Made by a program: the position numbers and the translations under genes. This document shows, piece after piece, positions 1,651 through 36,443 of a DNA stretch of 64,000 nt. Position 1 is the stretch's first letter. Every line of letters begins with the position of its first letter. Under the pieces are notes generated by a model. That model was not told the DNA's origin and ran no database searches. It was given only the letters and a program-made list of their open reading frames with translations. Location: contig CP136066.1 in the NCBI GenBank assembly GCA_032622095.1, positions 48,828,911-48,892,910 on the forward strand. Reading direction: 5' to 3'. The stretch is from Siphonodentalium dalli. Its lineage: Eukaryota > Mollusca > Scaphopoda > Gadilida > Siphonodentaliidae.

Positions 1651-4600
1651 CTGTAAAAAAAATTAAATTTTTTTTAAACTCATTGAATGTAAAAAGATTT
1701 ATCTCCGTCTCAACTTTTATATGAGGTGGCCTATAAAATTCAAGCCTATTACAGTTATGCTCTTAAGTAATCGACTTCTTAACCACAGCAGAATTATGGG
1801 TAACTTTTCAGGATTTAGTCGGAAATATGGCTTGTTGCCATTCATCAGAAAGCTCTCGGCGAGAGCTTTCCGATGAATGGCAACAAGCCATAATTCTGAC
1901 TAAATCCTGAAAAGTTACCCATAATTCTGCTGTGGTTAAGGGGTCGATTACTTAGGGCATTACTGTATATCATAACATACATATCATTATTGGAGAATAA
2001 TAATGATAACACTTATCATTGCCATGAAGCAGCGTCAGAGTTTATTGTAGAGCTGAAACGGTTGACCCATTCTTCTAACCGGTTAACAATCGGGGTTAAC
2101 CGGATTTCAACCGGTTAACCGCTAAATATCTAGCGGACTTCTCTCACACTAATTATGTTGACATTATGCCATGCTCCAGGGACAAACCTAGGTGAGAAGT
2201 AGTAGCTGAAATAAAGACCTTATTCACGGCATTTAACGATATTCAAAAACACGCATTCCTTGTTCTTTTGCTGGCTCTCGTGATGGGGAATGAGCAAGTG
2301 AAATTTGTGAATGGCAGGAGAGATCGCTTATTTGCCGTGATCAACATATGTTTGGGCATTTGTAAAACGAGTAAAATAGTATGGGTATTGGTAAAACGAG
2401 TAACAAAACTATATATTAAAGATCTGTAATATATCATTATCATCATTGGTATATCCTCCAATGCATTATATATAAAGACAAGAAAGTAATAACTAGAGAA
2501 CAAAAAGGAAGGTCAGTTAGGTCAGACTCGCAGTCCTATTCAGTATTCGAGCTATTCGTCGGTATCATGATAGCGGACACAAGTGTTGGGAGGTTATATA
2601 ATTTACGTTTCGGTTTCGGTTTCGGTTTTAATATGCAATCACTTAACATATAGCAATTACTGCCAAATTGAGTGTTAATTAGTCCCACAGGCACAACCAG
2701 TTACAGAGTAGCATGGAGCATCAATTTCCTTGATAAAAGGGAAGATTATTGAAGAAGTTTTGTGTTGCTTCAACTACGATGTCTGTTTGAGTCACTCAAT
2801 TGAATTGATCATATTAAATCACAACACGGAGGAAGAACGGGAAGAGTGAAGACATTGTGCAGCTGATCTCAATCTTCAAACTTTGTCGACTTACATAGTT
2901 TTTATAAACCCCACTGTAAAACAGTTTTATATATAGTATGTCGTGGTGTGGTTCCAATTTGAATCCATGTTGCTTCGTGCAGTATTAACTATTAAGTTAC
3001 GAAAGCACGCATTGCCACACAACGTCACTTTTACGTTGTCACTTCCTTGTGTGATTCAGAATTGATACACTGTGACTGCACACGTGCTTTTGTCGGAAGA
3101 AAACTTCAAAAGGTCGGAATTGATTGAAGGTCGCCGACACTTCCAGGCAGTTCGAGAATTGCTACTAAGTATCTGATACTACCGCGTGTACCAATTAATG
3201 CTTGCATTGCACTCTACTATCGGTGACACGGGATTTAGTATTAGTTTTGCATCATTTAACCTAATATTTTGAGGATTATTCACGTTCACATTCAACTGAC
3301 AACGGGATGCGGTTACGTCCGGTTCATTTTTTTCTAACCGGTTATGTCGCTAACCGGATGCTAACCGGTTAACCGTCTAACCGTTTCAGCTCTAGTTTAT
3401 TGGTATACATCATGCTTACAAGTTATGGGACGGGAACGTGTTCACATACAGGTTTATTACATCATACTTTATCTGTGTCGTGGTCACGAAAAACCTCTTG
3501 TGGGGGGGGGGGGGATGATGGAAAATTGCTTTCCGAAACCAACATCTCTAACGCAACTCAAATGTTCGGAAATTCATTCTAATTGATCAATTGTGCAACA
3601 CAAACCTATGCATGCACTATATAATATACAAATATAAATTAACAGATATAAAATATTCAGATGCACTACGATCGTGATCGAATGACACTTTATATGCGTT
3701 TACTATAAATGACAATAAAGCTATTTCTTCACAAATAAGGTGCGAAACGCACATTTCAAAGTTGCAATTAACTTATATTAATGATTATTCAACAAAAATA
3801 AGATTCATGCCAATTTTCTATAATCTGCATGATGTACTTGCATTATATAAATATCTGTTTCTCAGTTATATTTTCAACAAAAGCATATCATTCCATTATT
3901 TAAACGTCAATCCATAAGATTACTCAAATGTTTGAAACAAACATTTGGAGCTGACTTGGTCAACAAGACGCTTCAGCTCAAGCCTTGAAATAGTGTGTCT
4001 GTCATTTGCAGAATGATGTCCCCAGAGGGTGAATTTAGTGATGCTACCCCGCATAGTGGGCTAGCATCACCAAATTCACCCTCTGGGGGACCTCATTCTG
4101 CTTACACCTCAGCAGAATGAGGTTCCCAGAGGGTGAATTTGGTGATGCTAGCCCGCTATGCGGGGTAGCATCACTAAATTCACCCTCTGGGAACCTCATC
4201 CTGCAAATGACAGACACACTATTTCAAGGCTTGCATCAGCTAGTTCTATATATATCAGAAAGAGTGACATCTTACTTAGTGACAACCTGATTTTAAAATT
4301 ACATGAATAATTTTCATGTTGCACCTTATTGGAAAACATTCAACAACAATTTTCTTTCGAGCTCCATTCTCCAGAGATTCAATAGAATCTTTTCTTTGGT
4401 TTCCATATCATAACTGAATTTGATGTGCCATGACTAGTTCCCTTACCATAACTGTGAATTTGATGTCTTGGTGTGTCGTGACTGGTTCCTCGGGTAGCTG
4501 TATGCAGTCCTCGGACATCTCCACACCGAGCAGCCTGAATGCCACTCGTATGTGTGACTTATTCAACTCCCAGAGATTATCACCGCTCATCGGGATTCGC

Positions 4601-7600
4601 AGCCACATCTCTGTCATCTGTCGGACAGTCTACAGTGAAAAGTTTAAAAATGAGTTTTAACCCTTTACCCAACAAACCGGCCAAAACCGCCCAAATAAAG
4701 CTTCAACAGCCTAAAATATCTTCGGTCTGTCTCAATAGAACCATACAAATATGGATATCATTGGAACCGGCTCCTTGACCACATTGTGATAGTTACAGTT
4801 ATGCCCTGTGCCAATGCATTCTCTTATATATGTGAGTCGACCATAGGTCGCCTCGCATATATAAGAGAATGCATTGGCCTAAAAAAAATCTTTTTTTAAC
4901 ACTTTTTACCATTTTTTCTTACATTCTTTAACAATTTTCTAATTTTTAATGTGTTAAGCCAATGCATTCTCTTATATATGCGAGGCGACCTATGGTCGAC
5001 TCGCATATATAAGAGAATGCATTGGCACAGGGCCGTTCTGTTGGGTAAAGGGTTAATTGATTGGCAATCTCTACCGGAGCGTCTAGTCATACTTCCTCTT
5101 CCCACTCTGTCACCGGCTGGGTACTGGTCTGCAGTTTTCTATGTTTTGTGGGAGTTTCTTAGCCAAAATGGCGAAACTGCTCGCCCCAAAGTGAAATTTC
5201 CTATGTGCTTTGGGAACAATTCTCTCAGTATGGACAGAACAAAGATTTAAGGTGGTAGTTATTTTGACGATTTTCGTATGCAACTCAGTGAAATGGCAGT
5301 GAATTAGAACGCTTGTGTTTGACTTGACAGATGTTGTCCATGTGCTGTTAGATATTTGTATTGATAAAATAATCAGAAAACCAAACTACACACCTTTGCA
5401 AGAAATAGTTCTTCGGTTCTAATGGGAATTTCCAAACATAATGTCAATCTCTACCAGAGCGCACCAGTCATGCTTCCTTTCTGACTCTGTAACCGGCTGG
5501 GTACTAGTCTGTGTTTCTATATCTAGCATGGGATTTTCCAGCAAAAATGGCGAAACCTGATCGCTCCAAAGTCAAATTTTCTATGTGCTTTGAGAACAAT
5601 TCCCACACTAAAACGTAATGACAGAATGGAAAATCAGAGTGGTAGTTTTGTTGACGATTTCCACAAGCTGCTCATCAAATTTGCACCAAATTAGAACTCT
5701 TGTGTTTGACTTGCTGTTCGAGTTGTGACAATGTCGTACACATACGTTTATACTTTTGTGTTGATAAAATAATCGGAGAACTGAATCACACGGTTTCGAA
5801 ATATAGTTCTTCGGTTTTAGTGGGACTTTTCAAACATAAGGTCCAAAATTTATACAAATTTTATTCGATATTTTGTGTGCTTAACAAGGGCAGCATGTTG
5901 CTCTGTTCGCTTAGTATATATTTTAATATCGCGGAAGTCCACCAAATATGGGTGAAATGTCGCCGGTAGCAGTGGTCTTCCGTGTCATCAAGGGAGGTAA
6001 ACCCTGCATGGAGTTTGACATAATGTATGAAACTGTGTTGGATATTTTACTATTTGTGTGCATGATAAAGGGCAACGTGGCTCTGTTTGCTTAGTATATA
6101 TAGAGGATCTACAACAAGTCCCCCAGTTTATAGCGGAATTTACAAAATGAGTACACTAAATTAGGTCTGGACCGAGCCTTTGGTCATATTAAATAATTGA
6201 TATCTGTGTATAATGACTACTTTAATACTGACACCCAAGCTTACGACCACTTTATATATCAAAAGAAAGGAAATTTCATGACCAATAAGACACATTGAAC
6301 TATTTTGGGACTGAAATGATCAATTTTGAGAATCTATGAGGAATATGACAAACTAGGGGATTGCCCGTCAAAACTGATGGGTCTATATAGAGTTTCGTGG
6401 ATGCAAGCAGCATAACTCTATCTTATATCGATCATGAACTTTATTTTCCCCAGGGGCCTGGGCATTACGGGCCATGATAATGGGCTTTAACAGATAGTTA
6501 CTCACCATTCAGGGACCTGGGCATCACGGGCCATGAGAATGGGCTTTAACAGATAGTTACTCACCATTCTAGCGTATTTTGAGAGAGGTGATTTGTCTTC
6601 TCCCTGTTTAAAAATGGAGAAACAAGTAATAGAACAAGGATAAATATCCAGAAATGTTATGTACATGTATAATGATAGAACAATGGAACATGGATGCACA
6701 TTCAGGGATGATGTACATGTAATTACAGTAGGTACACTCGTCATGATTTAGAAAATTAACCCTTCCATGACTGGAGCTTCCTGAAATTTTGTGAAGACCC
6801 TATGCCAATGCATTCTCTTTTATATGGATGTCTCCAATAGGGAGCCTCGCATATATAATAGAATACATTGGCCCAACAATATTAACCTTGACCTTGTAAG
6901 CCAATGCATTCTATTATATATATGAGGCTCCCTATGGGAGACTAGCATATGTAAGAAAATGCACTGGCATAGGATCTTTAAAACTGCACCAGCGCAGCTC
7001 CCATCATGAAAGGGTTAATGTAGGTATAACTCAGAAAATAAAATGACTTATAATATCATAGAAAATTTGTCACATGAAATCAATATTTTTATTCCTTCTA
7101 TCCATGAGCACTGGCAGAATTTAAATCATTATGGCAATCACAATATTATGCTGGTCATCGTATAAACTGTGCTTCAGGCAAATATGGGTTGTGACTACAG
7201 TTGCGTTTTGCTTTGCGGGACATTTTTTTTATTAATTGTTTTTCTTCGGGCACAACTCCGGATCCACAAGGTGATTGATGAACCCAGAATTAACAAAATG
7301 TCAACAATTGGATGAAAAAGACTCCATAGAGTGATGAATTGTTCAAAGCATTGTGAGAATGACCTTCCATATTATAATTGTGTGTGTTTCTGCTCAACAT
7401 ATACCAGAATGTCTTCCAGTGGTTGATATAACTTATAAATTGACAATTTTTAACTAACTTATAGACAGCCCTGGAATGGAAAACTTCAATTGTTATAGCC
7501 CCAGGTATGGTTTACTGACACCACAGTGATGATTTACGTGCCCGCAGAAGTTTATATGATGACCAGCTAGTCAACTTACTATCCCATCTTACTTTATCTT

Positions 7601-10600
7601 TTATGTCACAGTATGAAATAGCTGCTCTATGTTTTCGGAATGAATACACTATATTTGAGAATGTTGAATTTGAGAAGTACACCTTTTAATTCACAGATCT
7701 TAACAAAATAAGTGTTTTTTCTAGGCTATAAATCAATGTAATAAAATAGTTCAAACACAATGCAAGATTTTAATGATGTTTTATGTTAAAAGCCATCAAG
7801 GTGTCAGCAATGTGAATAGAATGTTATTGAAACTTCACCTATAAAATAACTGAATGATGCTGTACCAGTATAAATATATCACCTATAAAATAACTGAATG
7901 ATGCTGTACCAGTATAAATATATCACATAAAACATATCTCATTCTTGAGGTGTACAAATTTTACTCCATATAGTGAACGTCACAACATTTATGAAAAGTG
8001 CTATAACTAATATTTTCTGTTGTTTTTACTAATGATAAAATAATAAATGGCAACTTGTGTGCAGCCATTGCTGTTTCATAATTTAATGAGAAATACGCAG
8101 CCGCACGGTAATTGATCGTAATCAGCGTTATCTGTGTTTTTAGAGTTGTTCGTTACTGAACACGTAAACATGCCTTTATACTGTTACACGTATTTACAAA
8201 CAATGTTTTCAACACTTGCAATTTTGCAAACACTTGCGGAAATATTCTTATGAAGATAAACTCTCTATCCTTAGACTAATGTCCCTTAAGTACAGGCGAT
8301 TACGTGGCGACCTAATAGCGGTACTGCGGTATACAAAATAAAGAGGGAGCATTACAACATCAAACAAGAAACGCTATTCGCTGATGCAACATATGCACTG
8401 ACTAGAGGCCATTCGTGTGAAATGATGATCAAACACTGCAATAAAGATGTCAGAAAATACTTTTTTAACCCTTTACCCAACAGAAGGGCCCTGTGCCAAT
8501 GCATTCTCTTATATATGCGAGTCGACCATAGGTCGCCTCGCATATATAAGAGAATGCATTGGCTTAAAGGGGTACTGTACACGGGGATAGACAATTTTTG
8601 TTATTTACTCCCATTGAAATAACTTTCAAGTTAGATTGTGTTCGTGTTATATGAGTTTCGTGTAAACCTAATTTAGCGAAGAAAATATTGATCTTGGAAA
8701 CAAAAATATTACGATTTCAAACTACGCGCCATGTTTTTGACCTTCACCGGAGAAGACTCATGTCGCAGGAAGAACCGGAAGTTCATTGTTCAATTGATGC
8801 ATCCAATCTCTTCCATCGAACAATCTCACTCCGTATAAAATTATTGACGCTTCAGGACTCTTGTTTCTTTCTCCTTTTTTCCGATTCGGTTATAGCAGGC
8901 CTTTATTTTGCAGGTAACATGTTATGTGTGCAACTCAATAATGTTCGCGAACGGCCGTCGATAAAAGACACGCAACAGATACTATTTCAAGAACGGTAAC
9001 TCGTACTGGCATAATTCTCCATTTTATGACTCCAGCCATAAATGAATTTATATTAAATAATTCAATTTTACTTTTGTGATAGCCTGTTAACCGGAACGTT
9101 TTCAGTAGACATCGTCGACTCAAATTAGTTATTTAAAAATATAATATTGATATTAGATCGTTATTGTCACCGGGAATTTATTGAAATTGGGGTACAGTAC
9201 CCCTTTAACACATTAAAAATTATAAAATTGTTAAAGAATGTAAGAAAAAATGGTAAAAAGTGTTAAAAAAAGATTATTTTTAGGCCAATGCATTCTCTTA
9301 TATATGCGAGGCGACCTATGGTCGACTCGCATATATAAGAGAATGCATTGGCACAGGGCATAACTGTAACTATCACAATGTGGTCAAGGAGCCGGTTCCA
9401 ATGATATCCATATTTGTATGGTTCTATTGAGACAGACCGAAGATATTTTAGGCTGTTGAAGCTTTATTTGGCCGGTTTTGGCCGGTTTATTGGGTAAAGG
9501 GTTAAACAGATAATTCGACCAATCTGGGATAGGATACCAAATGCAGTCGTTAGTGCTGAAACTTTAACCCAGTTCAAGAAATTGTTTGACTACCACTATA
9601 TTGATATACAGTATCAAACAGACTTCCCATAATATGTTATTTTTATGTAATTTTTAAATGCGTAAGCACCGGAACTAAGAGTCGGTCAGACTCGTTTCCG
9701 TGAAATATGTGACCCGCCATATCAAATCCAGTCGTAAGTCGGGATTTTATTACCCTGTGCCAATGCATTTTCTTATATATGCGAGTCGACCATAGGTCGC
9801 CTTGCATATATAAGAGAATGCATTGGCCTAACAATTTTTTACAATTTTAATAATTTGTTCTTGTATTCTTTAACAATTTTATAATTTCACCCATACAGAG
9901 CCCCAGACAAACATGAGCAGACGAAACTCTTCTATATGCTTCTATATATGTGTGGGGCTCCCTGCAGGGTAATGGATGTTTTTTATTTTATGTCCTAAAA
10001 ATTGTAAGAAATATTTAATTAAAAAACATGATAAAAAATTGTTAGGCCAATGCATTCTCTTATATATGTCGACTCGCATATATAAGAGAATGCATTGGCA
10101 CAGGGTAAAAAAATCCTGACTTACAACTGGATTTGATATGGCGGGGCACATATATGATATGATATCGTCACTGGAGGATTATTCATAATGAAAATAAGAA
10201 CAAATTCTTTCTATTTTTCGACGTTCTTGGTAACAATGGTTTAACCCTTTCAGTGCCAGGGGGCCGATCTCATTGGCCCTAATTTACGGTCTGTAAAATC
10301 GGCCCTAAAAAATATAAAAAAAATAAAAAAAAATGTCTGTTAAAGAATATAATAAAAAATGATTAAAATTGTAAAAAATAATGAAAAAATGTTAGGCCAA
10401 TGCATTCTCTTATATATGCGAGGCGACCTATATCTGCGAGTCGACCTATATAAGAGAATGCATTGGCAGAGGGTATATGGGTTGATACAAAAATCGGACT
10501 TGGCACTCAAAGGTTTAACAAACTTGGTAAGAATTTTCAGCTGGTACCCATCGCCTTCTGTAGCTTTAAAATTATTTTTAAAAAGATGCATTTGATTTTA

Positions 10601-13600
10601 TGATTGCAAAATAGAGTATGATAATGATAATACAATGTACTGATAACCTTCAAAATTAGGCGATTTTATCTGACAATTTTCTAAAAACCTACATCTTTTT
10701 TGGTGTATTCTTTGAGATTCTCTGGTGAAGCATAAATAGCTTTCCCGCCAGGAAACAAGTCCCATCGAAACTGTCTCCGTGGCACTGTCACAACTTCACC
10801 TTTATCACCAATACCTAGAATCGAAAAAACAGTGTAAAAACGATGTGACATGATCTTCCATCTGATTTTGTAAGGACATGACTGATATTTTACATATAGT
10901 GGTACCATCTACATATTCTGTATCTAAGATATTACTGATATTTAACCATTCCATGACTGGAGCTTCCTGAAATTTTTGCGAAAACGCTGTGCAAATACAT
11001 TGTCTTATATATATATATATATGCATATATATGATTATAAAAGAGAATACATTGGCCTAAAAATATTTACCCGGACTTGTAAGTGATAGCATTCTCATAT
11101 ATATGTGAGTCTCCCATAGTGAATCTCCAATATAAGAGAATGCACTGGCACAGGATCTTCAATGCTGCACAAGCCGAGCTCCCATCATGAAAGGGTGAAC
11201 ACATACCATCTAGATACAGAAATGCCCTAAATGATCGACTCCTTAATCACAGCAGAATTATGGGTAATTTTTCAGGATTTATTCGGAAAAATGGCTTGTT
11301 GCCATTCATCGGAAAGCTCTCACTGAGAACTTTCCAATAAATGGAAACAAGCCATATTTCTGACTAAATCCTGAAAAATTACCCACAGTTAAGGAGTTGA
11401 TTATGTAGGGCATTACTGTACACTGTGAGCACATGACTAATATTTTACACATACCATCTACATATTCTGTGAGCATATGACTAATATTTGACACATACCA
11501 TCTACATATTCTGTAAGCACATGACTAATATTTGACACATACCATCTACATATTCTGTGAGGATACAGGTGATATCTGGCAGTGGTTTACTGTGTTCATC
11601 CTCTAACTTCTCATAAACCTCGTATTTCTCAGGAAACTCAACTGGAAGTCTCTGATCAACTCTAACTGGTGGATATTCATACAATCTCTTCACGCGATGG
11701 ATGCACTAGAAATGGAAGAGAAATTCAAATCACATCCATTTACTCAGGCCTGAAAATACGGTGCCGGACATTTGCAGAATGAGGTCCCCAGTGGGTGAAT
11801 TTAGTGATGCTATCCTCTGGGAACCTCATTCTGCAATGCCTCATCTGCTATGGGAGACCTAAACACATTTAAGATCCCAGATGGTGAACACCTCGATTAT
11901 GCATTGTGTAGTCTGCCAATTTGAGGATACAGAAAAACTAAACTGAAAAAGAAACTTGTTTTCTAAAGAAACTAAACAAATTTGTTAATGTGACAATAAA
12001 GAAAATTTCCAAAGATGAGGCCTGAGCAGAATCAGATCACAATAGGGTGAATTTAGAGATGCTAGCCCGCTGTGAGGGGTACTGTTACTAAATTCACCCT
12101 ATGGGGACCTCATTCTGCAAATTTCCAGCACCATATTTTGAGGCCTGATCAATGATCTCAGAATTGATTTTCAATTCCGTTGTAAAAGTATACAATTTAT
12201 TATACACTCAACGGTGATTTATCAAAAAATCATGGTTAAATAAATTTTGATATCCCCAAGAAAGGGATATAAAAGTGTTCACTTTCACACGGGCTCGCAC
12301 ATGCGACCGATTCACTTGCGTGTACCCATGCATTACCAGAATATTTCAAAATCATCGTGAATCAGTAGAGTTATCGTTTAAGTACTGTTATTATTATAGT
12401 TAATGAAAGTGTCAATGACACTGTAGCTAAACTTGGGGAGGCATTAGTTTTATGCTGAGCTCCCAACTAGAGGCGATCCTAAACATGCCTGTAAATTCTC
12501 AAAACATTACTCCAATAAATGCGTGCTGCAGGGTGTGCCAATGGATTCATATTTGAAATCCAAAATGGCTGCTGGTGGCCAAGTTTTTAACAAATTTCGA
12601 AAAAAATGGCTCCCGTCTAGGTGTCACCCCAAATGTCCATATGAAGTTTGGTGATGATCGGATGAGGGATGCGGCCTGTAGGGTGATCCAAAGGAAACTG
12701 GTGATGGACGCACACATGGACGACAGACGCCAACCCAATATATAAAATCTATTTTATGTAGAAATTTGACACAATTATGGGGGAAATAAATTCAAGAATA
12801 TGGGAACTGTATTAATCTATTCAGCGGATGGTGTAGAGGCAGTGATCAGCTGTTGGCTTTGATACATCGATTGTGAGAACATTTATTGTTGTAAAATGGG
12901 AAATTCATTTGGAAATGCATCATTTTGGGAATAAACCTGCATTCCATAGGCATTACAGTTGAAGAAATGCAGACATTCAACAACAACTAAATGTTGGTAT
13001 CTGGAGAAAATTTATTAATTTAACAAAGGAAAGTCATAAAATGTCTAAATACTGACAGCCCAGATAAAGATAAAAACTGTTAACAAAATTCAGCATAAAA
13101 TTTTATTTTAAACCATAAACTATAATTTGCCATTTGGCAAATGGGTCTCTCCTAAATTATGTCATCAGGACTTTAGATTTGTGTAATTTGGGCACAACAA
13201 AACAAACCATAATTTCAAAATTTAGAAGAAAAAAACTTGAAATTGTTGCATTCATTTCCTGAGAATGACCATTTCCAGGATAATTTTTCATTGATATCAA
13301 TATTAAATATCACATTCAGGGCTTCTATTTCGGCAAGAATTCAAATCTAGATTCTCGTAAATATTCTTGCAAATTACCCTGGATTCTCATGAAAAAGTAT
13401 GTATGGATTCTCGCAAAATCAGATGAAATATAAGCCCTGACATTTCAGTCTTTCTCAGTACTACAGGTATATAAACATAGTGATGCAATGGCAAAATTTC
13501 CATTCTTATTTTTATTTTGGGCAAATTTTTATATTTTTACTTGACTTGAATATGAGGGAATATAAAAGGCTGGTGCCATGTAAGCTCTGGATTAAACCCT

Positions 13601-13723: not shown

Positions 13724-13795
13724 CTGTAAAATACACATAAACATCTTATGAGGAGTAAAATGCTCATACTTGATTCATTGTTTAACCCTTTGGCG

Positions 13796-14119
13796 AGTAG
13801 AACGACATATATGTCGTCTATCAGTTTGAGATGTAGAACGACATATATGTCGTTTCAGGAAGTGTTATTTTACGTAGACATAACTTCAATAAATCATCTG
13901 ATTTATAAATGATTTGTATAGGAGTTATTTTGATTAATATTATGTCCCAAATGTACAAGTGCAATCGATTATGATAACACACGTTAAAAAAATGCACATA
14001 AATTAAAACAAATTATTGGACCCTTTTGACCCGAACTTGTTAATAATTATTGCTATGACGTCGACGTAAAATTTACTCATGACGTCGTGTATATGACGTT
14101 ACAGATACTCTCCAAAGGG
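13796..14119. mobile_element. TTAA-flanked MITE (CCCTTTGGCGAGTAG subfamily)
   Basis: TTAA at 13792-13795 and 14120-14123; ends CCCTTTGGCGAGTAG and ACTCTCCAAAGGG; the internal motif ACGACATATATGTCGT occurs near the left end. Confidence 0.75.
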
Positions 14120-14123
14120 TTAA

Positions 14124-14937: not shown

Positions 14938-14939
14938 TA

Positions 14940-15153
14940 CAGTAATGCCCAAATTAATTGACAACATAACCACAGCAAAATTATTGGTAACTTTTCAGGA
15001 TTTAGTCGGAAATATGGCTTGTTGCCATTCATCGGAAAGCTCTCAGTGAGAGCTTTCAGATGAATGGCAACAAGCCATATTTCCGAATAAATCCTGAAAA
15101 GTTACCCATAATTCTGCTGTGGTTAAGAAGTCGATTACTTAAGAGCATTGCTG
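14940..15153. mobile_element. TA-flanked palindromic MITE (CAGTAATGCCC family)
   Basis: Full palindrome, CAGTAATGCCCAAATTAATT to AAGAGCATTGCTG, with TACATG on both sides extending the symmetry. Confidence 0.83.
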
Positions 15154-22700: not shown

Positions 22701-25700
22701 GGACTTACCCTCATTCTAGCGGCTTTCCTAGCAACCCTTGAATAATTATACAACATTATTATGTAAAATTAAATAGAATGACTCTCATTGGAGAAAACAT
22801 TTTCGTTTGTTTGTCTTGATTTTTTTGGGTGGAACCAATGATTGTTTGTTTACAATTTTTGAGTAGTTCAGATGTTGTCTTTTAAAGGTACTCAACCCGT
22901 AAAGAGGGTCCCCATCTCAACAGATTCCAACAACAACAATCCGATCGGAGGGTCCTATATTACTATTTCTTTGGCTTTGGGGGTAAAAAATATTTGATTC
23001 GAGTCGAGGAACCCATCAAACAAAGCTCAGAGTTATTAGATATTGATTTTTGAAATTTGTTATAAACTCGAGATCAGTACTACTAACTGCCGTAATCTGC
23101 TCTGGATGTGTTCTCCAAATCTATTCAAACAGACAAGGATGGATAACTCTAAAATCAAGTGGTAATTTTAACGCAATTTTGACTGAGTTCTGGGCCAGAT
23201 AGTATTCCCGATAATGAAAAATAATAGATTTCTAAAATCGATATCTAACAAATCTGAGCTTTGATGGGTGACTTCCTCGACTCGAATCAAATATTTTTGA
23301 CCCCCGAAGCCATTGAAATAGTAATTGAGATGAGTTTTATCGGGTTGAGTACCTTTAAGAAATGGCACCGCAAATATTGTTGAATATTTTGAATGAGTAA
23401 TAATATATTAGTTTGATGAATAATAGTTTGCACGTAATATGGCTTAACAATTATTGATGTAAAAAATTAGTCTGAACTGACAGAATACAACGTAAATTTA
23501 AGTTGTGTGGGGAGGTGTCTTAGACCTCCCATAGCAGCCAAACAGTTGGATATTTGAGGATTTAATCCATCTTCGCTAAATGGATTCTCCCAATCAGTTA
23601 TAAAAGTGGACATTGGGATGTTCTATTATTCAATTGGAGGGATGTTCAGATAATAAAAGAAGATGAAAAGCTAATACAAGAAAGGTTCATATTAAGATAA
23701 TAAGTTCAACAAACTATCTATGAACTTATTATCTGAACATTTCCATAGAGAACTACTCGTCAATGAGTGTTTAAAATAAAAGGGTTAAAGTTTGTTGCAT
23801 CCTTGTCTGGTTCTGCGAATATTGATAAATTTGCTAAATATTTAAAGATACATAATCCAAATTATCTGACGTTTCTGATGATACAGGGACCATCAAATCA
23901 GATTGTGTACCTTTAACCCTTTACCCAACAGAAGGGCCCTGTGCCAATGCATTCTCTTATATATGCGAGTCGACCATAGGTCGCCTCGCATATATAAGAG
24001 AATGCATTGGCTTAACACATTAAAAATTATAAAATTGTTAAAGAATGTAAGAAAAAATGGTAAAAAGTGTTAGGCCAATGCATTCTCTTATATATGCGAG
24101 GCGACCTATGGTCGACTCGCATATATAAGAGAATGCATTGGTACAGGCTTAACTGTAACTATCACAATGTGGTCAAGGAGCCGGTTCCAATGATATCCAT
24201 ATTTGTATGGTTCTATTGAGACAGACCGAAGATATTTTAGGCTGTTGAAGCTTTATTTGGCCGGTTTTGGCCGGTTTGTTGGGTAAAGGGTTAAGCTGCT
24301 TGGGTTCTGTTGAACATAAATTACTAACCTGGAAGATACTTTTGAAGTTCATAATCAAACTAGTAAACTATATCTCTCTTAAATTTCAGTACCAAAAAGT
24401 AAACAAATTGACTGCTGATGCCAAATTTGGTAAGTTTTAAGTTAGCCGATGTGTGTGAAATTTTTGTATGACCCCATAGCCTCCAGGAGGTATTCGATTC
24501 TCTGATCTCCCTTGGAATGTATGATATCTATAGCAATCCATTTTTTAAAGTGGTGTGCTCGTTTTAAATTTAAATATTTTTTAATTTATATTTTTACACG
24601 TTTTAAGAACACGCTGACTAAATTGAACTGGCACAAATGAAACAATCTCAAATTTACCTGAGAAATATAAGAAACGAAACATGTTTTTTCAGTGCTATAC
24701 AACAATGTTTTTGTAGATAATGCCATGAATCTCTACTCTGGTTAATGCCTGTAGAGATCATATTCCACCAGTACAAAACTTGGATCTTTTTGAAGTCTTG
24801 ACAGGGAACCTAATAAATGCAAAAAAATAATGTGGGGAAATTGTTTCTTAGTTATTATCTGTTCCTTTATAATAATGTACTTCGCTGTAGGTGAAGATCC
24901 CAAGTCGAAATTGCATGGTTTTCCATGATGTTTGTGAGCTGATATCGCAATAAACATTGAATTAATTACCCATGAGAAATTCCATAATTGTAAATAACGC
25001 GAAGCAAAATCGCTCACAAGGTCGAAGATTAATTAAGGAACAGATAATAACTTAGAAATATATTCCCCGTGTTATTTTTCGACTTTATAAGGTTCCCTGT
25101 CAAAACTTCAAAGAGTTTGCAGGTTTTGTACTGGTGGAATATGATCTCTACAGGCGTTAGCCAGAGTAGAGATTCATGGCATGATCTAATGTTTTTTTAA
25201 ATCTTCTGCATAGGTATGTTTTGCGATACCTCTTACCAAACTATATACAGTAATGCCCTAAATAATATACCCCTTAACCACAGCAGAATTATGGGTAACT
25301 TTTCAGGATTTAGTCGGAAATATGGCTTGTTACCATTCATCGGAAAGCTCTCTCTTTCCGACTAAATCCTGAAAAGTTACCCATAATTCTGCTGTGATTA
25401 AGGGGTCGCTTTCTTAGGGCATTACTGTATTTGAATGAGTCATGTCCGTTTAATTTCTATTTTGTTTTCACAGAGAGCGGTGATATTAAAGCTAGCATCG
25501 CGGCACTGTCCCTCGTCATATCTAGTGCCACCAAGTACAGCGTCGATGGGGAAACGTTATCTAATGAATTACAGCAGCTGGGTCTGCCTAAAGGTACTGT
25601 CATGGTACTAACAGGAATGTTCAAGGTTCAATGTGATGAAATCTAATTAATTACAATGAATTACAGAAGCTTGGTCTGCCTTAATGGTACAGTTATTCAG

Positions 25701-28700: not shown

Positions 28701-31700
28701 AGGGGCCGATCTCATCGGCCCTAATTTACGGTCTGTAAAATCGGCCCTAAAAAATTAAAAAACAAAAAATTCAATTTTTTTTTTTTTTAAAGATTTTTTT
28801 AGGTTGATTTTTTTTGGGTATGCTTAAGCATGCTATAGCAAATTTAAAAACAAACTGGATAAACCCTTAAGAGCATGTTATAACTCAAAACTATCACCAA
28901 GTATTCATTGTAATAATTTTGATGCCCATGAAAAACGTAAGATTCCCTGGCACTTAACCTACAAAATAAGTCTGTTAAAGAATATAAGAAAAAATTATTA
29001 AAATTGTAAAAAATTGTAAAAAATAATAACAAATGATGATAAATTGTTAGGCCAATGCATTCTCTTATATATGCGAGGCGACCTATGGTCGACTCACATA
29101 TATAAGAGAATGCATTGGCACAGGGTATATGGGTTGATACAAAAATCAGTTTCCACACCTAGCCTGTCTCAGGATGTGGAAAGTCTAGATTGATCTACAC
29201 AGAAAACTACTTAATTGTTAAGCTAGTACACCAGATTTTTTTTTCTCCTGATGATAACCTTAGATAATGTTGACTTAATGGAATTAAATTGGCATACATG
29301 TTTACAAACATAAAATACAGGTCAAGATCGATTTTGGGTTCTGTCCCCCAATTTTACTGGAGTTACGCATCTTTTTTTACTTTGAAATTCGGGTTTTCTT
29401 GTTTCCCTGTTGATAACTGTAGATACACAGTAGGGTAATGGGTGTATTATGTCCAATGGGTGTATTATGTCCAATGGGTGTATTATGTCACACCCAGTGG
29501 TGCCCTTGTTTGCAAATTTTTTAACAATATGTCAGGAAGTATGAGATGGAATTTCAAAGACATTTGTCATTGGGCTAGGAAGTAATACAAATATGAACAA
29601 TTGTTTGCTTTAACCCTTTTCAGTGACAGGGGCCGATCTCATCGGCCCTAATTTACGGTATGTATTATAATCGGCCCTAAAAAAAATTATATATATATTT
29701 ATTTTTTTTGGTTGAATTTTTTTGGGGTATGCTTAAGCATGCTATAGCGAATTTAAAAATGAAACAAACTGGATAAAACCTTAGGGGCATGTTATAACTC
29801 AAAACTATCACCAAGTATTCATAGTAATAATTTTGATGCCCATGAAAAATGTAAGATTCCCTGGCACTAAACTTACAAAATAAGTCTGTTAAAGAATATA
29901 AGAAAAAATTATTAAAATTGTAAAAAATTGTAAAAAAAATAACAACAAATGATGAAAAATTGTTAGGCCAATGCATTCTCTTATATATGCGAGGCGACCT
30001 ATGGTCGACTCGCATATATAAGAGAATGCATTGGCACAGGGTATATGGGTTGATACAAAAATCGGACCTGGCACTGAAAGGGTTAAAGCATCATTGATGA
30101 GTAGTTATCCATTAGGAAATGTTCAAATAATAAGTTCAACAAACGGTGTTTGTTGAATTCATTTTCAGAACATTCCCATCATTGAATACGATTCCTTCTG
30201 CACATTCTATTTCTTAACACCCCCTCCAAATAAATAATAGACCATTATAATGTATACTTTTATGACTGAGTGGGAGAATCCATTTAGTATATAAAGGGTT
30301 AAACGCTGCATATCAGGCTTTTTGTCAAATCTTTAGTACCGATTAAATTGGGCAATATAAATTCCGACATCATTTAACAAGGGGTACAACTCCTGCTTAA
30401 ATATTAAAATTCACCAGAATTCTATGTTTGCGGAAAGTGGAAATGCCAGCCTCACACCTTTGAACAGTAATACATACATCATTTTATTTTCATTTAGGAT
30501 ATAAATGAACCAAGTATCCAGCTAAAGATGAATGTCAAAGACCCTGATATGGAAGAATCAGAAGTGGTATCATTCACAGTATCATCTGATAAATTCACTG
30601 TCCTCTTACATGGTAAGTCTAACGGTATGAGCTGATAAATTCACTGTCCTCTTACATGGTAAGTCTGACAGTGTCAGCTGATAAATTCACTGTCCTCTTA
30701 CATGGTAAGTCTGACAGTGTCAGCTGATAAATTCACTGTCCTCTTACACGGTAAGTCTGACAGTGTCAGCTGATAAATTCACTGTCCTCTTACACGGTAA
30801 GTCTGACAGTGTCAGCTGATAAATTCACTGCTATCTTACATGGTAAGTCTGACAGTGTCAGCTGTTAAATTCACTGTTCTTTTACATGGTAAGTCTGACA
30901 CTGTCAGCTGATAAATTCACTGTCCTCTTACACGGTAAGTCTGACACTGTCAGCTGATAAATTCACTGTTCTCTTACATGGTAAGTCTGACAGTGTCAGC
31001 TGATAAATTCACTGTCCTCTTACATGGTAAGTCTGACAGTCAGCTGTTAAATTCACTGTTCTCTTACACAGTAAGTCTGACACTGTCAGCTGATAAATTC
31101 ACTGTTCTCTTACATGGTAAGTCTGACAGTGTCAGCTGATAAATTCACTGTCCTCTTACACAGTAAGTCTGACACTGTCAGCTGTTAAATTCACTGTTCT
31201 CTTACACGGTAAGTCTGATAGTGTCAGCTGATAAATTCACTGTCCTCTTACACAGTAAGTCTGACACTGTCAGCTGTTAAATTCACTGTCCTCTTACACG
31301 GTAAGTCTGACACTGTCAGCTGATAAATTCACTGTTCTCTTACATGGTAAGTCTGACACTGTCAGCTGTTAAATTCACTGTTCTCTTACACAGTAAGTCT
31401 GACACTGTCAGCTGATAAATTCACTGTCCTCTTACACAGTAAGTCTGACACTGTCAGCTGTTAAATTCACTGTTCTCTTACACGGTAAGTCTGATAGTGT
31501 CAGCTGATAAATTCACTGTCCTCTTACACAGTAAGTCTGACACTGTCAGCTGTTAAATTCACTGTCCTCTTACACGGTAAGTCTGACACTGTCAGCTGAT
31601 AAATTCACTGTTCTCTTACATGGTAAGTCTGACACTGTCAGCTGTTAAATTCACTGTTCTCTTACACGGTAAGTCTGATAGTGTCAGCTGATAAATTCAC

Positions 31701-34700
31701 TGTCCTCTTACACAGTAAGTCTGACACTGTCAGCTGTTAAATTCACTGTTCTCTTACACGGTAAGTCTGATAGTGTCAGCTGATAAATTCACTGTCCTCT
31801 TACACAGTAAGTCTGACACTGTCAGCTGTTAAATTCACTGTTCTCTTACACGGTAAGTCTGATAGTGTCAGCTGATAAATTCACTGTCCTCTTACACAGT
31901 AAGTCTGACACTGTCAGCTGTTAAATTCACTGTCCTCTTACACGGTAAGTCTGACACTGTCAGCTGATAAATTCACTGTTCTCTTACACGGTAAGTCTGA
32001 TAGTGTCAGCTGATAAATTCACTGTCCTCTTACACAGTAAGTCTGACACTGTCAGCTGTTAAATTCACTGTTCTCTTACACGGTAAGTCTGATAGTGTCA
32101 GCTGATAAATTCACTGTCCTCTTACACAGTAAGTCTGACACTGTCAGCTGTTAAATTCACTGTTCTCTTACACGGTAAGTCTGATAGTGTCAGCTGATAA
32201 ATTCACTGTCCTCTTACACAGTAAGTCTGACACTGTCAGCTGTTAAATTCACTGTTCTCTTACACGGTAAGTCTGACACTGTCAGCTGATAAATTCACTG
32301 TTCTCTTACACGGTAAGTCTGATAGTGTCAGCTGATAAATTCACTGTCCTCTTACACAGTAAGTCTGACACTGTCAGCTGTTAAATTCACTGTCCTCTTA
32401 AACAGTAAGTCTGACACTGTCAGCTGATAAATTCACTGTTCTCTTACACGGTAAGTCTGATAGTGTCAGCTGATAAATTCACTGTCCTCTTACACAGTAA
32501 GTCTGACACTGTCAGCTGTTAAATTCACTGTTCTCTTACACGGTAAGTCTGATAGTGTCAGCTGATAAATTCACTGTCCTCTTACACAGTAAGTCTGACA
32601 CTGTCAGCTGTTAAATTCACTGTTCTCTTACACGGTAAGTCTGATAGTGTCAGCTGATAAATTCACTGTCCTTTTACACAGTAAGTCTGACACTGTCAGC
32701 TGTTAAATTCACTGTCCTCTTACACGGTAAGTCTGACACTGTCAGCTGATAAATTCACTGTTCTCTTACATGGTAAGTCTGACACTGTCAGCTGTTAAAT
32801 TCACTGTTCTCTTACACAGTAAGTCTGACACTGTCAGCTGATAAATTCACTGTCCTCTTACACAGTAAGTCTGACACTGTCAGCTGTTAAATTCACTGTT
32901 CTCTTACACGGTAAGTCTGATAGTGTCAGCTGATAAATTCACTGTCCTCTTACACAGTAAGTCTGACACTGTCAGCTGTTAAATTCACTGTTCTCTTACA
33001 CGGTAAGTCTGACACTGTCAGCTGATAAATTCACTGTTCTCTTACATGGTAAGTCTGACACTGTCAGCTGATAAATTCACTGTCCTCTTACACAGTAAGT
33101 CTGACACTGTCAGCTGTTAAATTCACTGTTCTCTTACACGGTAAGTCTGATAGTGTCAGCTGATAAATTCACTGTCCTCTTACACAGTAAGTCTCACAGT
33201 GTCAGCTGATAAATTCACTGTTCTCTTAAATTCACTGTCCTCTTACACAGTAAGTCTGACACTGTCAGCTGTTAAATTCACTGTTCTCTTACACGGTAAG
33301 TCTGACACTGTCAGCTGATAAATTCACTGTTCTCTTACACGGTAAGTCTGATAGTGTCAGCTGATAAATTCACTGTTCTCTTACATGGTAAGTCTGACAC
33401 TGTCAGCTGTTAAATTCACTGTTCTCTTACACAGTAAGTCTGACACTGTCAGCTGATAAATTCACTGTTCTCTTACATGGTAAGTCTGACAGTGTCAGCT
33501 GATAAATTCACTGTCCTCTTACACGGTAAGTCTGACACTGTCAGCTGATAAATTCACTGTCCTCTTACATGGTAAGTCTGACACTGTCAGCTGATAAATT
33601 CACTGTTCTCTTACATGGTAAGTCTGATACTGTCAGCTGATAAATTCACTGTCCTCTTACATGGTAAGTCTGACACTGTCATCTGATAAATTCACTGTCC
33701 TCTTACATGGTAAGTCTGACACTGTCAGGTGTTAAATTCACTGTTCTCTTACATGGTAAGTCTGACACTGTCAGCTGTTAAATTCACTGTTCTCTTACAT
33801 GGTAAGTCTGACACTGTCATCTGTTAAATTCACTGTTCTCTTACATGGTAAGTCTGACACTGTCAGCTGATAAATTCACTGTTCTATTACATGGTAAGTC
33901 TGACACTGTCAGGTGTTAAATTCACTGTTCTCTTACATGGTAAGTCTGACACTGTCATCTGATAAAATCACTTTCCTCTTACATGGTAAGTCTGACACTG
34001 TCATCTGATAAATTCACTGTTCTATTACATGGTAAGTCTGACACTGTCAGGTGTTAAATTCACTGTTCTCTTACATGGTAAGTCTGACACTGTCAGCTGA
34101 TAAATTCACTGTCCTCTTACATGGTAAGTCTGACACTGTCATCTGATAAATTCACTGTCCTCTTACATGGTAAGTCTGACACTGTCAGGTGTTAAATTCA
34201 CTGTTCTCTTACATGGTAAGTCTGACACTGTCATCTATTAAATTCACTGTTCTCTTACATGGTAAGTCTGACACTGTCAGCTGATAAATTCACTGTTCTA
34301 TTACATGGTAAGTCTGACACTGTCAGGTGTTAAATTCACTGTTCTCTTACATGGTAAGTCTGACACTGTCAGGTGTTAAATTCACTGTCCTCTTACACGG
34401 TAAGTCTGACACTGTCAGCTGATAAATTCACTGTCCTCTTACACGGTAAGTCTGACACTGTCAGCTGATAAATTCACTGTCCTCTTACATGGTAAGTCTG
34501 ACACTGTCAAGTGTTAAATTCACTGTTCTCTTACATGGTAAGTCTGACACTGTCAGGTGTTAAATTCACTGTCCTCTTACACGGTAAGTCTGACACTGTC
34601 AGCTGTTAAATTCACTGTTCTCTTACATGGTAAGTCTGACACTGTCATCTGATAAATTCACTGTCCTCTTACATGGTAAGTCTGACACTGTCATCTGATA

Positions 34701-36443
34701 AATTCACTGTCCTCTTACATGGTAAGTCTGACAGTGTCAGCTGATAAATTCACTGTCCTCTTACATGGTAAGTCTGACACTGTCAGCTGATAAATTCACT
34801 GTCCACTTACATGGTAAGTCTGACACTGTCAGCTGATAAATTCACTGTCCTCTTACACGGTAAGTCTGACACTGTCATCTGATAAATTCACTGTCCTCTT
34901 ACATGGTAAGTCTGACACTGTCATCTGATAAATTCACTGTCCTCTTACATGGTAAGTCTGACACTGTCAGCTGATAAATTCACTGTCCTCTTACATGGTA
35001 AGTCTGACACTGTCAGCTGATAAATTCACTGTCCTCTTACACGGTAAGTCTGACACTGTCAGCTGATAAATTCACTGTCCTCTTACATGGTAAGTCTGAC
35101 ACTGTCAGCTGATAAATTCACTGTCCTCTTACACGGTAAGTCTGACACTGTCAGCTGATAAATTCACTGTCCTCTTGCATGGTAAGTCTGACACTGTCAG
35201 CTGTTAAATTCACTGTTCTTTTACATGGTAAGTCTGACACTGTCAGCTGATAAATTCACTGTCCTCTTACACGGTAAGTCTGACACTGTCAGCTGTTAAA
35301 TTCACTGTTCTCTTACATGGTAAGTCTGACACTGTCATCTGTTAAATTCACTGTTCTCTTACACGGTTAATCTGACACTGTCAGCTGTTAAATTCACTGT
35401 TCTCTTACACGGTAAGTCTGACACTGTCAGGTGTTAAATTCACTGTTCTCTTACACGGTAAGTCTGACACTGTCATCTGATAAATTCACTGTTCTCTTAC
35501 ACGGTAAGTCTGACACTGTCAGGTGTTAAATTCACTGTTCTCTTACACGGTAAGTCTGACACTGTCATCTGATAAATTCACTGTTCTCTTACACGGTAAG
35601 TCTGACACTGTCATCTGATAAATTCACTTTTCCTCTTACACGGTAAGTCTGATAGTATGAGCTGATAAATTCACTGTTCTCTTATACGGTAAGTCTGATA
35701 TAGACTCCGACGAAGGTTCGAGATTCAATTCGATTCAAAGTCTAATGGGAGATTCTTTTATATATCGATTATTGGTTACCCCATTTATTTCCTCATTTCA
35801 TTTTTTGAAATTTTAACAGAATTAAGCAACTATTAATTATTGCCGTGTAAGACTCTAGTCAATACACAAACACATTGCAAACTTCACGAGTTAAGCAATA
35901 GAGTTACAGAGTTATCGCGCTTGTGAAAAATACTTTTGTTCCATCAGGGTACTTAACCCTTTCAGTGGCAAGTCCGATTTTTGTATCAACTTATATAACC
36001 TTGATCATTTTTCAAATTTATTGATTATAATAATGTGATACATTGATGGAAAGAGCTCTTAGAGCTCTTTCCATCAATGTATCACATTATTATAATCAAT
36101 AAATTTGAAAAATGATCAAGGAAATATGGGTTGATACAAAAATCGGACTTGGCACTGAAAGGGTTAAACCTTTCATGACTGGAGCTTCCTGAAATTTTGT
36201 GAAAGCCCTGTGCCAATCTCCTATGGGAGATTCGAATATATCAGATACGGTACTGGTACAGGATCTTTTGTGCTGCATCAGCGCAGCTCCTTTAATGAAA
36301 GGGTTAGCTACTCAAATAATTAAGTAAAACTAATACAATATCTCCTATGAAACCGTCAGACCTATTTGGCTTTTTTCTACATTTTGTGTCTCATTTCAGA
36401 ATTAAAGCAAGCCCAAGCAATGATGGAGACGCTTGGAACGTAG
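16783..36443 (+). CDS. COMMD4: COMMD4, COMM domain-containing protein 4 (whole gene, nine joined exons)
   Basis: COMMD proteins form the heteromeric Commander complex with CCDC22 and CCDC93, which acts in endosomal recycling of membrane proteins; COMMD4 is one of the ten subunits. Joined exons 16783-16785 (proposed), 19381-19452, 21419-21484, 24390-24429, 25474-25593, 26980-27060, 28543-28604, 30498-30612 and 36400-36443 give 603 nt: 200 residues plus TAG. Human COMMD4 has 199. The start [20 protein letters not shown] is almost invariant in the family. The helical N-terminal domain includes LTADAKFESGDIKA and [11 protein letters not shown]. The COMM domain follows, with [12 protein letters not shown] and the tail [13 protein letters not shown]. 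All junctions are GT-AG and phase-consistent. Intron 8 is mostly a tandem array of its own 5' splice site. Confidence 0.95.
16981..18319. mobile_element. Second AGTGCCACCGCAGACGC element with nested insertions
   Basis: Ends AGTGCCATCGCAGACGCTAC and GCGTGTGTGGTGGCACT. The stretch 17057-17715 is a separate insert whose ends repeat GAAGTCGGCCCC. Inside it 17258-17495 is a further inverted repeat (CGAAATACCAAGCTGAACC). The right part (18080-18319) parallels 15,990-16,189. It lies in the proposed COMMD4 intron 1. Confidence 0.72.
18320..18680. mobile_element. Inverted-repeat element starting TGAACGTTCA
   Basis: AAGTGAACGTTCAGACGACC at the left and GGTCATATGAACGTTCACTA at the right flank a region of ACGATT motifs, related to the neighbouring family. 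Boundaries approximate. Confidence 0.5.
19381..19452 (+). CDS. COMMD4: COMMD4 exon 2
   Basis: The exon follows acceptor TTCATTTTCAG and precedes donor GTGAGT. Its 72 nt encode [19 protein letters not shown] then TLSKI, nearly identical to the start of vertebrate COMMD4. It is phase 0 at both ends. Confidence 0.95.
20537..20657 (-). pseudogene. 5S rRNA-derived relic
   Basis: The reverse strand matches the central part of animal 5S rRNA: GATCACCGAAGTTAAGCAA, then GAGCTCGGTTAGTACTTGGA and TGGGTGACCGGCTTGGGATT. This covers the region of the internal promoter boxes A and C. The 5' third (around 20625-20657) is recognisable but diverged, and the 3' end has changes (GGTGGTGCTGCCA instead of the usual CGGGTGCTGT). 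It lies in COMMD4 intron 2. It could be a lone pseudogene or the head of a 5S-derived SINE; a second copy was not seen here. Confidence 0.72.
21117..21316. mobile_element. hAT-like palindromic MITE fragment
   Basis: Contains GGTGAACATCACCAACTTC, the GAACCTCATTCTGCAAATG hairpin arm and ACAGACATACTATTTCAAGC at the right end. In COMMD4 intron 2. Confidence 0.65.
21419..21484 (+). CDS. COMMD4: COMMD4 exon 3
   Basis: The exon lies between TTTCTTTGCAG and GTGAGT. Its 66 nt encode [20 protein letters not shown] then LD, matching the LLC-QV-L-LLG stretch of vertebrate COMMD4. It is phase 0 at both ends. Confidence 0.95.
21618..22236. repeat. Direct duplication of ~115 bp flanking a MITE
   Basis: AGTGATTTGAAACACTGTTG through CTCCATTATTTTGTT occurs at 21618-21732 and again at 22126-22233. 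The second copy joins the MITE at the shared tetranucleotide AAAG. Confidence 0.85.
21738..22124. mobile_element. piggyBac-like MITE, right end lost at a duplication junction
   Basis: Left TTAA 21734-21737 and CCCTTTACCCAACAGAACG; the right end stops at TTGGGTAAAG and runs straight into a copy of the left flank instead of GGTTAA. In COMMD4 intron 3. Confidence 0.8.
22886..23354. mobile_element. TTAA-flanked element (AGGTACTCAA family)
   Basis: TTAA at 22882-22885 and 23355-23358; ends AGGTACTCAACCCG and CGGGTTGAGTACCT. Shares internal TTTTGATTCGAGTCGAGGA-type sequence with the copy at 51,992. In COMMD4 intron 3. Confidence 0.8.
23564..23790. mobile_element. TTAA-type MITE (TACTAAATGGATTCTCC subfamily), left end decayed
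   Basis: CTAAATGGATTCTCCCAATC on the left and AAAATAAAAGGGTTAA on the right, with a central inverted repeat AATAAGTTCAACAAAC. Related to copies at 26,632, 30,090 and 63,175. Confidence 0.6.
23917..24290. mobile_element. piggyBac-like MITE (CCCTTTACCCAAC subfamily)
   Basis: TTAA at 23913-23916 and 24291-24294; complete paired-hairpin structure. In COMMD4 intron 3, about 100 bp before exon 4. Confidence 0.87.
24390..24429 (+). CDS. COMMD4: COMMD4 exon 4
   Basis: The 40-nt exon encodes [13 protein letters not shown] plus the first base of a Glu codon. The acceptor is TTAAATTTCAG and the donor GTAAGT. It ends in phase 1, matching exon 5. LTADAKFESGD across this junction is a family hallmark. 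Confidence 0.94.
24720..25182. mobile_element. Inverted-repeat element (ATGCCATGAATCTC family)
   Basis: Long arms ATGCCATGAATCTCTACTCT and AGAGTAGAGATTCATGGCAT plus GAGATCATATTCCACCAGTA on both arms. In COMMD4 intron 4. Shorter relatives at 61,717 and around 45,958-47,052. Confidence 0.8.
25248..25427. mobile_element. TA-flanked palindromic MITE in COMMD4 intron 4
   Basis: CAGTAATGCCCTAAATAATA to TTAGGGCATTACTG with TA flanks, ending only about 45 bp before exon 5. Confidence 0.83.
25474..25593 (+). CDS. COMMD4: COMMD4 exon 5
   Basis: The 120-nt exon (phase 1 to phase 1) encodes [20 protein letters not shown], then [19 protein letters not shown] and the first base of Glu. The acceptor is TTTTCACAG and the donor GTACTG. 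It matches the human stretch through [14 protein letters not shown] diverged copy of its last ~30 nt plus donor sits 92 bp downstream in the intron. Confidence 0.95.
25655..25692 (+). repeat. Copy of COMMD4 exon 5 end plus donor in intron 5
   Basis: AATGAATTACAG, then AAGCTTGGTCTGCC and GGTACAGT repeat the exon 5 end and donor (25563-25600, AATGAATTACAGCAGCTGGG onward) with about five substitutions and one insertion. The offset is 92 bp. The copied reading frame now meets TAA (CCTTAATGG), consistent with release from coding constraint. Confidence 0.82.
26632..26871. mobile_element. TTAA-flanked MITE (CTATACTAAATGG subfamily)
   Basis: TTAA at 26628-26631 and 26872-26875; ends CCCTTTCTATACTAAATGG and TTTAGTACCGAAAGGG. 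In COMMD4 intron 5. Confidence 0.78.
26980..27060 (+). CDS. COMMD4: COMMD4 exon 6
   Basis: The 81-nt exon (phase 1 to phase 1) lies between TTTATTTCTAG and GTGAGT. It encodes [20 protein letters not shown] then RSQSLR, matching the human CRCYEEKQSPLQ-H-R--SLR stretch. A minisatellite begins about 8 nt past its donor. Confidence 0.93.
27068..27302 (+). repeat. Minisatellite in COMMD4 intron 6, abutting the donor
   Basis: Imperfect tandem copies of TCATGGTGGGGAATCACGTC with ATTTCGAGG and GGTGATTTCAGTAG spacers begin a few bases past the exon 6 donor. Sub-repeats of about 30 bp are grouped into a longer period. The unit does not obviously contain the exon end. Confidence 0.7.
27844..28022. mobile_element. 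TA-type palindromic MITE, decayed, COMMD4 intron 6
   Basis: CAGTAATGCCCTAAATAAAT on the left; the right end reads ACTAGGGAATTACCTA. Shortened arms. Confidence 0.7.
28543..28604 (+). CDS. COMMD4: COMMD4 exon 7 (COMM domain signature)
   Basis: The 62-nt exon encodes [20 protein letters not shown] then K, ending in phase 0 at donor GTAGAT. The acceptor is [22 protein letters not shown] is the opening strand of the COMM domain, with the conserved Trp. Confidence 0.94.
28688..29148. mobile_element. piggyBac-like MITE (CAGTGCCAGGGGCCG), right end truncated
   Basis: TTAA at 28684-28687 and CCCTTTCAGTGCCAGGGG at the left; the sequence leaves the family consensus at AAAAATCAG near 29148. In COMMD4 intron 7. 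Confidence 0.78.
29614..30082. mobile_element. piggyBac-like MITE (CAGTGCCAGGGGCCG), complete
   Basis: TTAA at 29610-29613 and 30083-30086; ends CCCTTTTCAGTGACAGG and CCTGGCACTGAAAGG. In COMMD4 intron 7. Confidence 0.82.
30090..30301. mobile_element. TTAA-type MITE remnant (CTAAATGGATTCTCC subfamily, inverted)
   Basis: GGGAGAATCCATTTAGTATA then AAAGGGTTAA at the right, with AATAAGTTCAACAAAC in the centre. It abuts the preceding element. Confidence 0.6.
30498..30612 (+). CDS. COMMD4: COMMD4 exon 8
   Basis: The 115-nt exon follows TTTTCATTTAG and ends CAT G|GTAAGT in phase 1. It encodes [20 protein letters not shown], then [18 protein letters not shown], matching EPMVHLRLEV and MSLSADKFQVLLAE of human COMMD4. 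Its last 27 nt (30586-30612) plus the donor are the founder-like first unit of the 46-bp array that fills the next intron. Confidence 0.94.
30586..35700 (+). repeat. 46-bp tandem array made of COMMD4 exon 8 end plus its 5' splice site (~110 copies)
   Basis: The array starts inside exon 8 and fills most of intron 8. Each 46-bp unit has CTGATAAATTCACTG, then a C/T-rich stretch ending TTACATG or TTACACG, the donor GTAAGTCTGA, and CACTGTCAG. The exon itself supplies the first copy. About 5.1 kb at 46 bp gives roughly 110 units. There are three zones: a 5' zone with TGACAGTG, a middle (about 31.06-33.47 kb) dominated by 92-bp dimers alternating ACACAGTAAG and ACACGGTAAG units, and a 3' zone with CATCTGAT and AGGTGTTA variants. 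The last unit resembles the first intronic one (GTATGAGCTG), as expected of array edges that escape homogenisation. Confidence 0.97.
35957..36163. mobile_element. Palindromic piggyBac-like MITE in COMMD4 intron 8
   Basis: TTAA 35953-35956 and 36164-36167, ends CCCTTTCAGTGGCAAGTCCG and CGGACTTGGCACTGAAAGGG. Nearly the whole ~207 bp is one palindrome centred on AAGAGCTCTTAGAGCTCTT. Confidence 0.85.
36168..36303. mobile_element. Short piggyBac-like MITE directly adjoining the previous one
   Basis: Starts ACCTTTCATGACTGGAGC immediately after the shared TTAA 36164-36167 and ends GCTCCTTTAATGAAAGGG before TTAG. It ends about 95 bp before COMMD4 exon 9. Confidence 0.75.
36400..36443 (+). CDS. COMMD4: COMMD4 exon 9 (terminal exon)
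   Basis: After acceptor GTGTCTCATTTCAG the exon completes a Glu codon and encodes [13 protein letters not shown] then TAG at 36441-36443. This matches the ELKQAQTLM-LG tail of vertebrate COMMD4. No AATAAA lies close by; the first I noticed is at 37528-37533, so the poly(A) site is unresolved. Confidence 0.93.

Follow-up and report, generated by a model that had tools for sequence, protein, structure and literature searches.

The 64,000-nucleotide stretch of the Siphonodentalium dalli genome analysed here (the window) carries MRPL9 on the minus strand and COMMD4 on the plus strand as a head-to-head pair (Table 1). The MRPL9 model encodes 237 amino acids and matches the MRPL9/bL9m chain 4ce4_I (E 5e-19), while the COMMD4 model encodes 200 amino acids, the first two residues being supplied rather than read from the DNA, and matches residues 1-199 of the COMMD4 chain 8f2r_D (E 3.6e-75). 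COMMD4 exon 1 was not located in the gene modelling of the window, leaving 12 testable donors in the two genes. Among the best 120 of 951 matches the COMMD4 protein was 74% identical to that of Haliotis rubra as against 67% for Branchiostoma belcheri, the top match by E-value also being 74% identical, and in the COMMD4 tree the window sequence was placed inside no well-supported group. The named MRPL9 matches, three among five, were from Patella, Argonauta and Octopus. Downstream of several exons in both genes lie copies of the exon end with its 5′ splice site, the longest series forming an array after COMMD4 exon 8; a tandem repeat whose units lie across an exon-intron border in this way is here called a mirage, after its counterparts in lancelets (see below).

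Table 1. Exons, border repeats and the enclosing inverted repeat at the MRPL9/COMMD4 locus. Positions are those of the window unless a contig (C6) is named; TRF marks repeats found by that program.
Feature	Position	Strand	Basis or remark
MRPL9 exons	13723-13637, 11705-11543, 10814-10693, 6603-6565, 4629-4447, 1650-1531	-	gene model
MRPL9 exon 2	11543..11705	-	gene model, spliced protein match
MRPL9 exon 4	6565..6603	-	gene model
MRPL9 exon 5	4447..4629	-	gene model, spliced protein match
COMMD4 exons 2-9	19383 to 36443	+	gene model
COMMD4 exon 5	25474..25593	+	gene model, spliced protein match
COMMD4 exon 8	30498..30612	+	donor after 30612, first in the series, in-frame splice to exon 9
COMMD4 exon 9 (last)	36400..36443	+	acceptor 5.8 kb past the first exon 8 donor
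44-nt mirage after MRPL9 exon 2	11423..11561	-	TRF, 3.2 copies
59-nt duplication at MRPL9 exon 4 donor	6451..6569	-	TRF, 2 copies; mostly intron-side, ~5 exon bases
Stretch with degenerate copy of MRPL9 exon 5 end	4409..4446	-	~38 nt downstream; donor lost in copy
Degenerate copy of COMMD4 exon 5 end	25656..25686	+	~93 nt downstream; donor-like GTACAG follows
46-nt array after COMMD4 exon 8	30582..35698	+	TRF, 110.9 copies (~111 units)
Large inverted repeat including the window	C6 ~48798911 to 49033641		100-N gap at C6:48914877

Copies of exon ends within the window

Borders were assessed by aligning the last 30 nt of each exon plus 10 nt of intron to the following 500 nt. Downstream copies were found at 5 of the 12 donors with a score of 30 or more, namely MRPL9 exons 2 (57), 4 (30) and 5 (33) and COMMD4 exons 5 (49) and 8 (71), the remaining seven donors scoring 14-18; the cut of 30 was set post hoc with the scores already known, and MRPL9 exon 4 lies exactly at it. 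No convincing copy was present at any of 12 acceptors in the window, where one 15-nt match scored 25 and the others 13-17. A score of at least 30 was reached by 9% of 4000 random window positions and by 0.03% of Markov sequence (290-nt target). The difference between donors and acceptors (5/12 vs. 0/12) gave a Fisher P of 0.037, and the donor count set against assumed rates of 8% and 12% gave binomial P values of 0.0016 and 0.0095, but since the window was chosen for these repeats this donor excess is inseparable from selection.

The first-pass annotation had described copies of exon termini at 5 of 13 donors, always reaching into the downstream intron and each with its own unit length. The five copies are real, set against 12 testable donors rather than 13. 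Units of 44, 59 and 46 nt were recovered by TRF, while the copies at MRPL9 exon 5 and COMMD4 exon 5 are degenerate and lie ~38 and ~93 nt downstream. The description as copied exon termini fits all five donors, loosely so at MRPL9 exon 4, whose unit includes just ~5 exon bases, and the downstream direction is true of the window but not of the genome at large, acceptor-side copies being present elsewhere (L031, L055 and L043 in the CCT sample below).

The clearest cases are the 44-nt array at MRPL9 exon 2 and the 46-nt array at COMMD4 exon 8. Split by eye, the 46-nt unit comprises ~29 nt of exon end and donor followed by ~17 nt of intron start, and the hexamer GTAAGT occurs 110 times in ~111 units. 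Over 108 aligned units 22 of the 46 positions are invariant, and 18 of these lie beyond the donor hexamer; GTAAGT is no better conserved than many other positions of the unit, and selection on the array donors was rejected on this ground. The units differ from one another by many single bases and fall into alternating and block-wise types, with next-but-one units 93.5% alike as against 91.6% for adjacent units, a pattern that recurrent amplification of short blocks would produce.

Use of the second donor would break the reading frame in four of the five window cases, by adding 46, 44, 59 and 38 nt, and in the fifth, with 93 nt added, would run into a stop codon. A rule based on frame was nevertheless rejected, in that the window units are mostly frame-breaking yet two units in CCT genes are not. 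Away from any border, a perfect 44-nt tandem repeat of 2.1 copies is present in an MRPL9 intron (window 7835-7926) and is of equal length in both copies of the locus. The window also carries a palindromic MITE-like element (4657-5000), with resembling stretches seen by eye near 8493, 21765 and 57880 and, among 40 candidates scored, at least 38 further places, 98-99% identical over ~344 nt, spread over all nine contigs.

Comparison with an inverted copy of the locus

The genome assembly (2.23 Gb in nine contigs) contains a second, inverted copy of the MRPL9/COMMD4 locus. Inverted-repeat homology is already present 30 kb left of the window, where the compared DNA begins, and runs to window coordinate 80,817, followed by ~5 kb of the first arm that is unpaired ahead of a 100-N gap, with the second arm starting at 86,067, the first base past that gap. 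The second arm is ~95-100% identical to exon-plus-flank queries. Since it begins directly at a scaffold gap, the two locus copies are probably haplotypes, the simplest reading being that the second is a retained haplotype joined by scaffolding; a true inverted duplication is the alternative reading.

Repeat number differs between the locus copies at four of the five border sites. The MRPL9 exon 2 array has 7.2 units in the second copy versus 3.2 in the window, MRPL9 exon 4 is unduplicated versus two copies, and COMMD4 exon 5 is followed by an 82-nt unit repeated 9.4 times versus one degenerate copy. At COMMD4 exon 8 a two-unit state stands against the ~111 units of the window, the second unit being split within intron 8 by a ~2.1-kb insertion with tandem repeats of 164-nt period (L019/L018), and the difference may reflect either array growth in one arm or loss from the other. 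The degenerate copy at MRPL9 exon 5 is unchanged (259/261 bases identical). All four border arrays detected by TRF differ in length between the arms, while among cleanly mapped non-border repeats, a comparison that omits those unmapped or confounded by insertions, five differ and seven do not. As such the instability is not limited to borders.

Exon borders in CCT-family genes

Exons of the CCT family provided a sample not chosen for repeats. A search with CCT/TCP-1 (PF00118) gave 53 matches, of which 42 were counted as independent, nine near-identical partners being uncounted and two long, intronless-looking matches left out; the nine close exon pairs, on contigs C1, C7 and C8, are 91-99.6% identical and on the same strand. 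In a version of the test built on borders, 40 regions were given automatic donor and acceptor calls and searched with 40-nt border queries at a cut of 28, with L047, L050, L053, L064 and L066 omitted from the donors for want of an acceptable call and some of the automatic donor picks wrong (L048 and L057, judged by eye only). Local copies were found at 4 of 35 donors (11%; L042, L045, L052 and the degenerate L057) and 3 of 40 acceptors (L031, L055 and the degenerate L043), a difference with a Fisher P of 0.70, and of positions taken at random 4.7% had a local copy in introns of the window genes, as did 8.5% of those in the arm.

A border-free version covered all 42 exons and skipped the 15 nt directly flanking each match, which excludes L057, with L043 falling below the cut. 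Exon sequence was copied downstream of 4/42 exons (L042, L045, L048 and L052; 95% interval 2.7-22.6%), the mirage at L048 having been added on reading the sequence after its automatic donor proved misplaced, and upstream of 2/42 (L031 and L055). At score 28 a local copy accompanied 17 of 168 intronic segments from the same regions (10%; query and target were both shorter in this control) and, among 3000 length-matched random arm segments outside exons, 14%. When the cut is raised to 50 the CCT counts stay at 4 and 2 while the controls fall to 4.2% in same-region introns and 8.9% in the arm, such that the donor side (9.5%) lies above the former and not clearly above the latter. Pooling the window with the CCT borders gives 9/47 donors against 3/52 acceptors (P 0.063).

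The mirage at L045 (C2:20444828-20445649) has a unit of ~39-40 nt; no fewer than eight more units follow on visual count, the first of which stays in frame without a stop. By hand count two CCT extensions, of 63 and 39 nt, keep the frame and stay open, and to judge from their sequence such copies could be exonised.

In these data the earlier proposal of a recurrent process acting independently at different sites is borne out by repeats of like kind in CCT genes and by the unlike copy numbers of the two locus copies. The accompanying proposal, of a process peculiar to exon ends and donors, is not: when the comparison of rates that the first-pass annotation had called for was run on the 42 CCT exons, the border rate (4/42 downstream, 2/42 upstream) was indistinguishable from that of introns (10-14% of intronic or random segments). 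Targeting of donors is unsupported by the CCT sample, whose small size leaves room for a roughly twofold donor excess. Local tandem duplications are common throughout the regions sampled, and borders are affected on both sides. In keeping with this, donor-only targeting was rejected as the leading account, given the acceptor copies and the absence of a clear excess over introns in the CCT sample.

Known counterparts and origin of the border repeats

The repeats of the window are real and recurrent, are probably polymorphic and are of a kind already known from lancelets. In amphioxus, mirage minisatellites are reported from Adh3, the globins BflGb6 and BflGb9, TnC and PGBD5, with tandem units of 10-160 bp across the exon-intron border, many carrying splice signals, located at both 5′ and 3′ borders while regular mRNA splicing is undisturbed (PMC3087553, PMC3902484). 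Likewise in S. dalli tandem units span the border at five donors (by ~5 exon bases at MRPL9 exon 4), the splice signal is repeated along the 46-nt array although the MRPL9 exon 5 copy no longer has it, and both sides of the border are affected, on the acceptor side at L031 and L055 with L043 degenerate; in the present case splicing is considered through the reading frame. Copy number at BflGb6 varies by haplotype, six versus three, and BflGb9 has one duplicate (PMC3087553, PMC3902484), to which the difference at four of five sites between the two locus copies here would correspond if these are, as is probable, haplotypes. The host is not a lancelet, and the ~111 units after COMMD4 exon 8 far exceed the numbers given for BflGb6 and BflGb9 in the available text of those reports. 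No case of border minisatellites outside lancelets was recognised from titles and abstract openings.

Two further systems invite comparison. In intron gain by tandem genomic duplication a short duplication creates extra splice sites within a gene (PMC3443670); as far as that account extends, the class of mutation is the same as that seen here, where it is an existing intron that has been lengthened. No new intron inside a former exon was found: the window copies lie in introns, and the COMMD4 protein obtained by splicing at the original border matches 8f2r_D along its whole length. Within human segmental duplications, internal minisatellites have expanded, with units of ~30 bp repeated ~4 times, so that near-identical copies differ by longer exons or introns (PMC2812944). 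This is repeat expansion as in the present locus, but it is one between paralogues and, in the available extract of that report, is not described in terms of border copies.

The mirage minisatellites probably stem from a high general rate of local tandem duplication and survive through the intact original exon and first donor. At such a rate a tandem duplication of ~40-90 nt would on occasion happen to span an exon-intron border, by replication slippage, end joining or unequal exchange. With the original exon and first donor left in place, the extra exon ends and donors would become intron, and two copies would then suffice for a minisatellite to grow or shrink by slippage or unequal exchange, to ~111 units in one COMMD4 copy. 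The copies are presumably neutral and the first donor is presumably the one used in the mRNA, in which case transcripts would be normal despite the duplication; tolerance through an intact first donor is plausible. A process aimed at donors, in which breakage, R-loops or polymerase stalling at transcribed borders would duplicate exon ends preferentially, accords with the window contrast between donors and acceptors, with the pooled counts and with the donor side of the CCT sample at the strict cut (4/42 against 4% of same-region intronic segments). We regard it as improbable, as CCT donors hardly exceed acceptors (4/35 against 3/40) nor downstream copies upstream ones (4/42 against 2/42, not above the arm control), and as the exon share per unit, ~5 to ~50 nt by eye, argues against a fixed breakpoint. 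Moreover, in an exon-anchored pair one copy is constrained and the pair would remain recognisable longer than intronic pairs, such that a mild donor excess could follow from constraint alone. A broader proposition, that borders are duplication-prone above background and that their minisatellites form a standing polymorphic source of intron growth together with a natural allele of ~111 donors whose first donor yields the conserved protein, is in our estimation unlikely.

That the arrays are functional, their many strong 5′ splice sites serving as U1-binding decoys or anti-polyadenylation sites kept by selection, might be supposed from the near-constant presence of GTAAGT. The 18 invariant positions outside the hexamer are nevertheless what homogenisation predicts, and the second locus copy does without the long exon 8 array, making this account highly improbable. 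Assembly error, whether in the copy numbers (array lengths are given as assembled) or in the inverted second locus, gains some credence from the start of that arm directly after the 100-N gap, where it is likely a retained and misplaced haplotig. Such misplacement creates no repeats, like repeats occur in unlinked genes, and many single-base differences separate the array units in a block-wise pattern. Assembly error is in our estimation very unlikely.

With the S. dalli repeats, mirage minisatellites are known beyond lancelets in an unrelated animal, and in an extreme and apparently polymorphic form. The COMMD4 array offers a natural test of how the spliceosome chooses among many equivalent 5′ splice sites, and equally of intron growth through minisatellite expansion.
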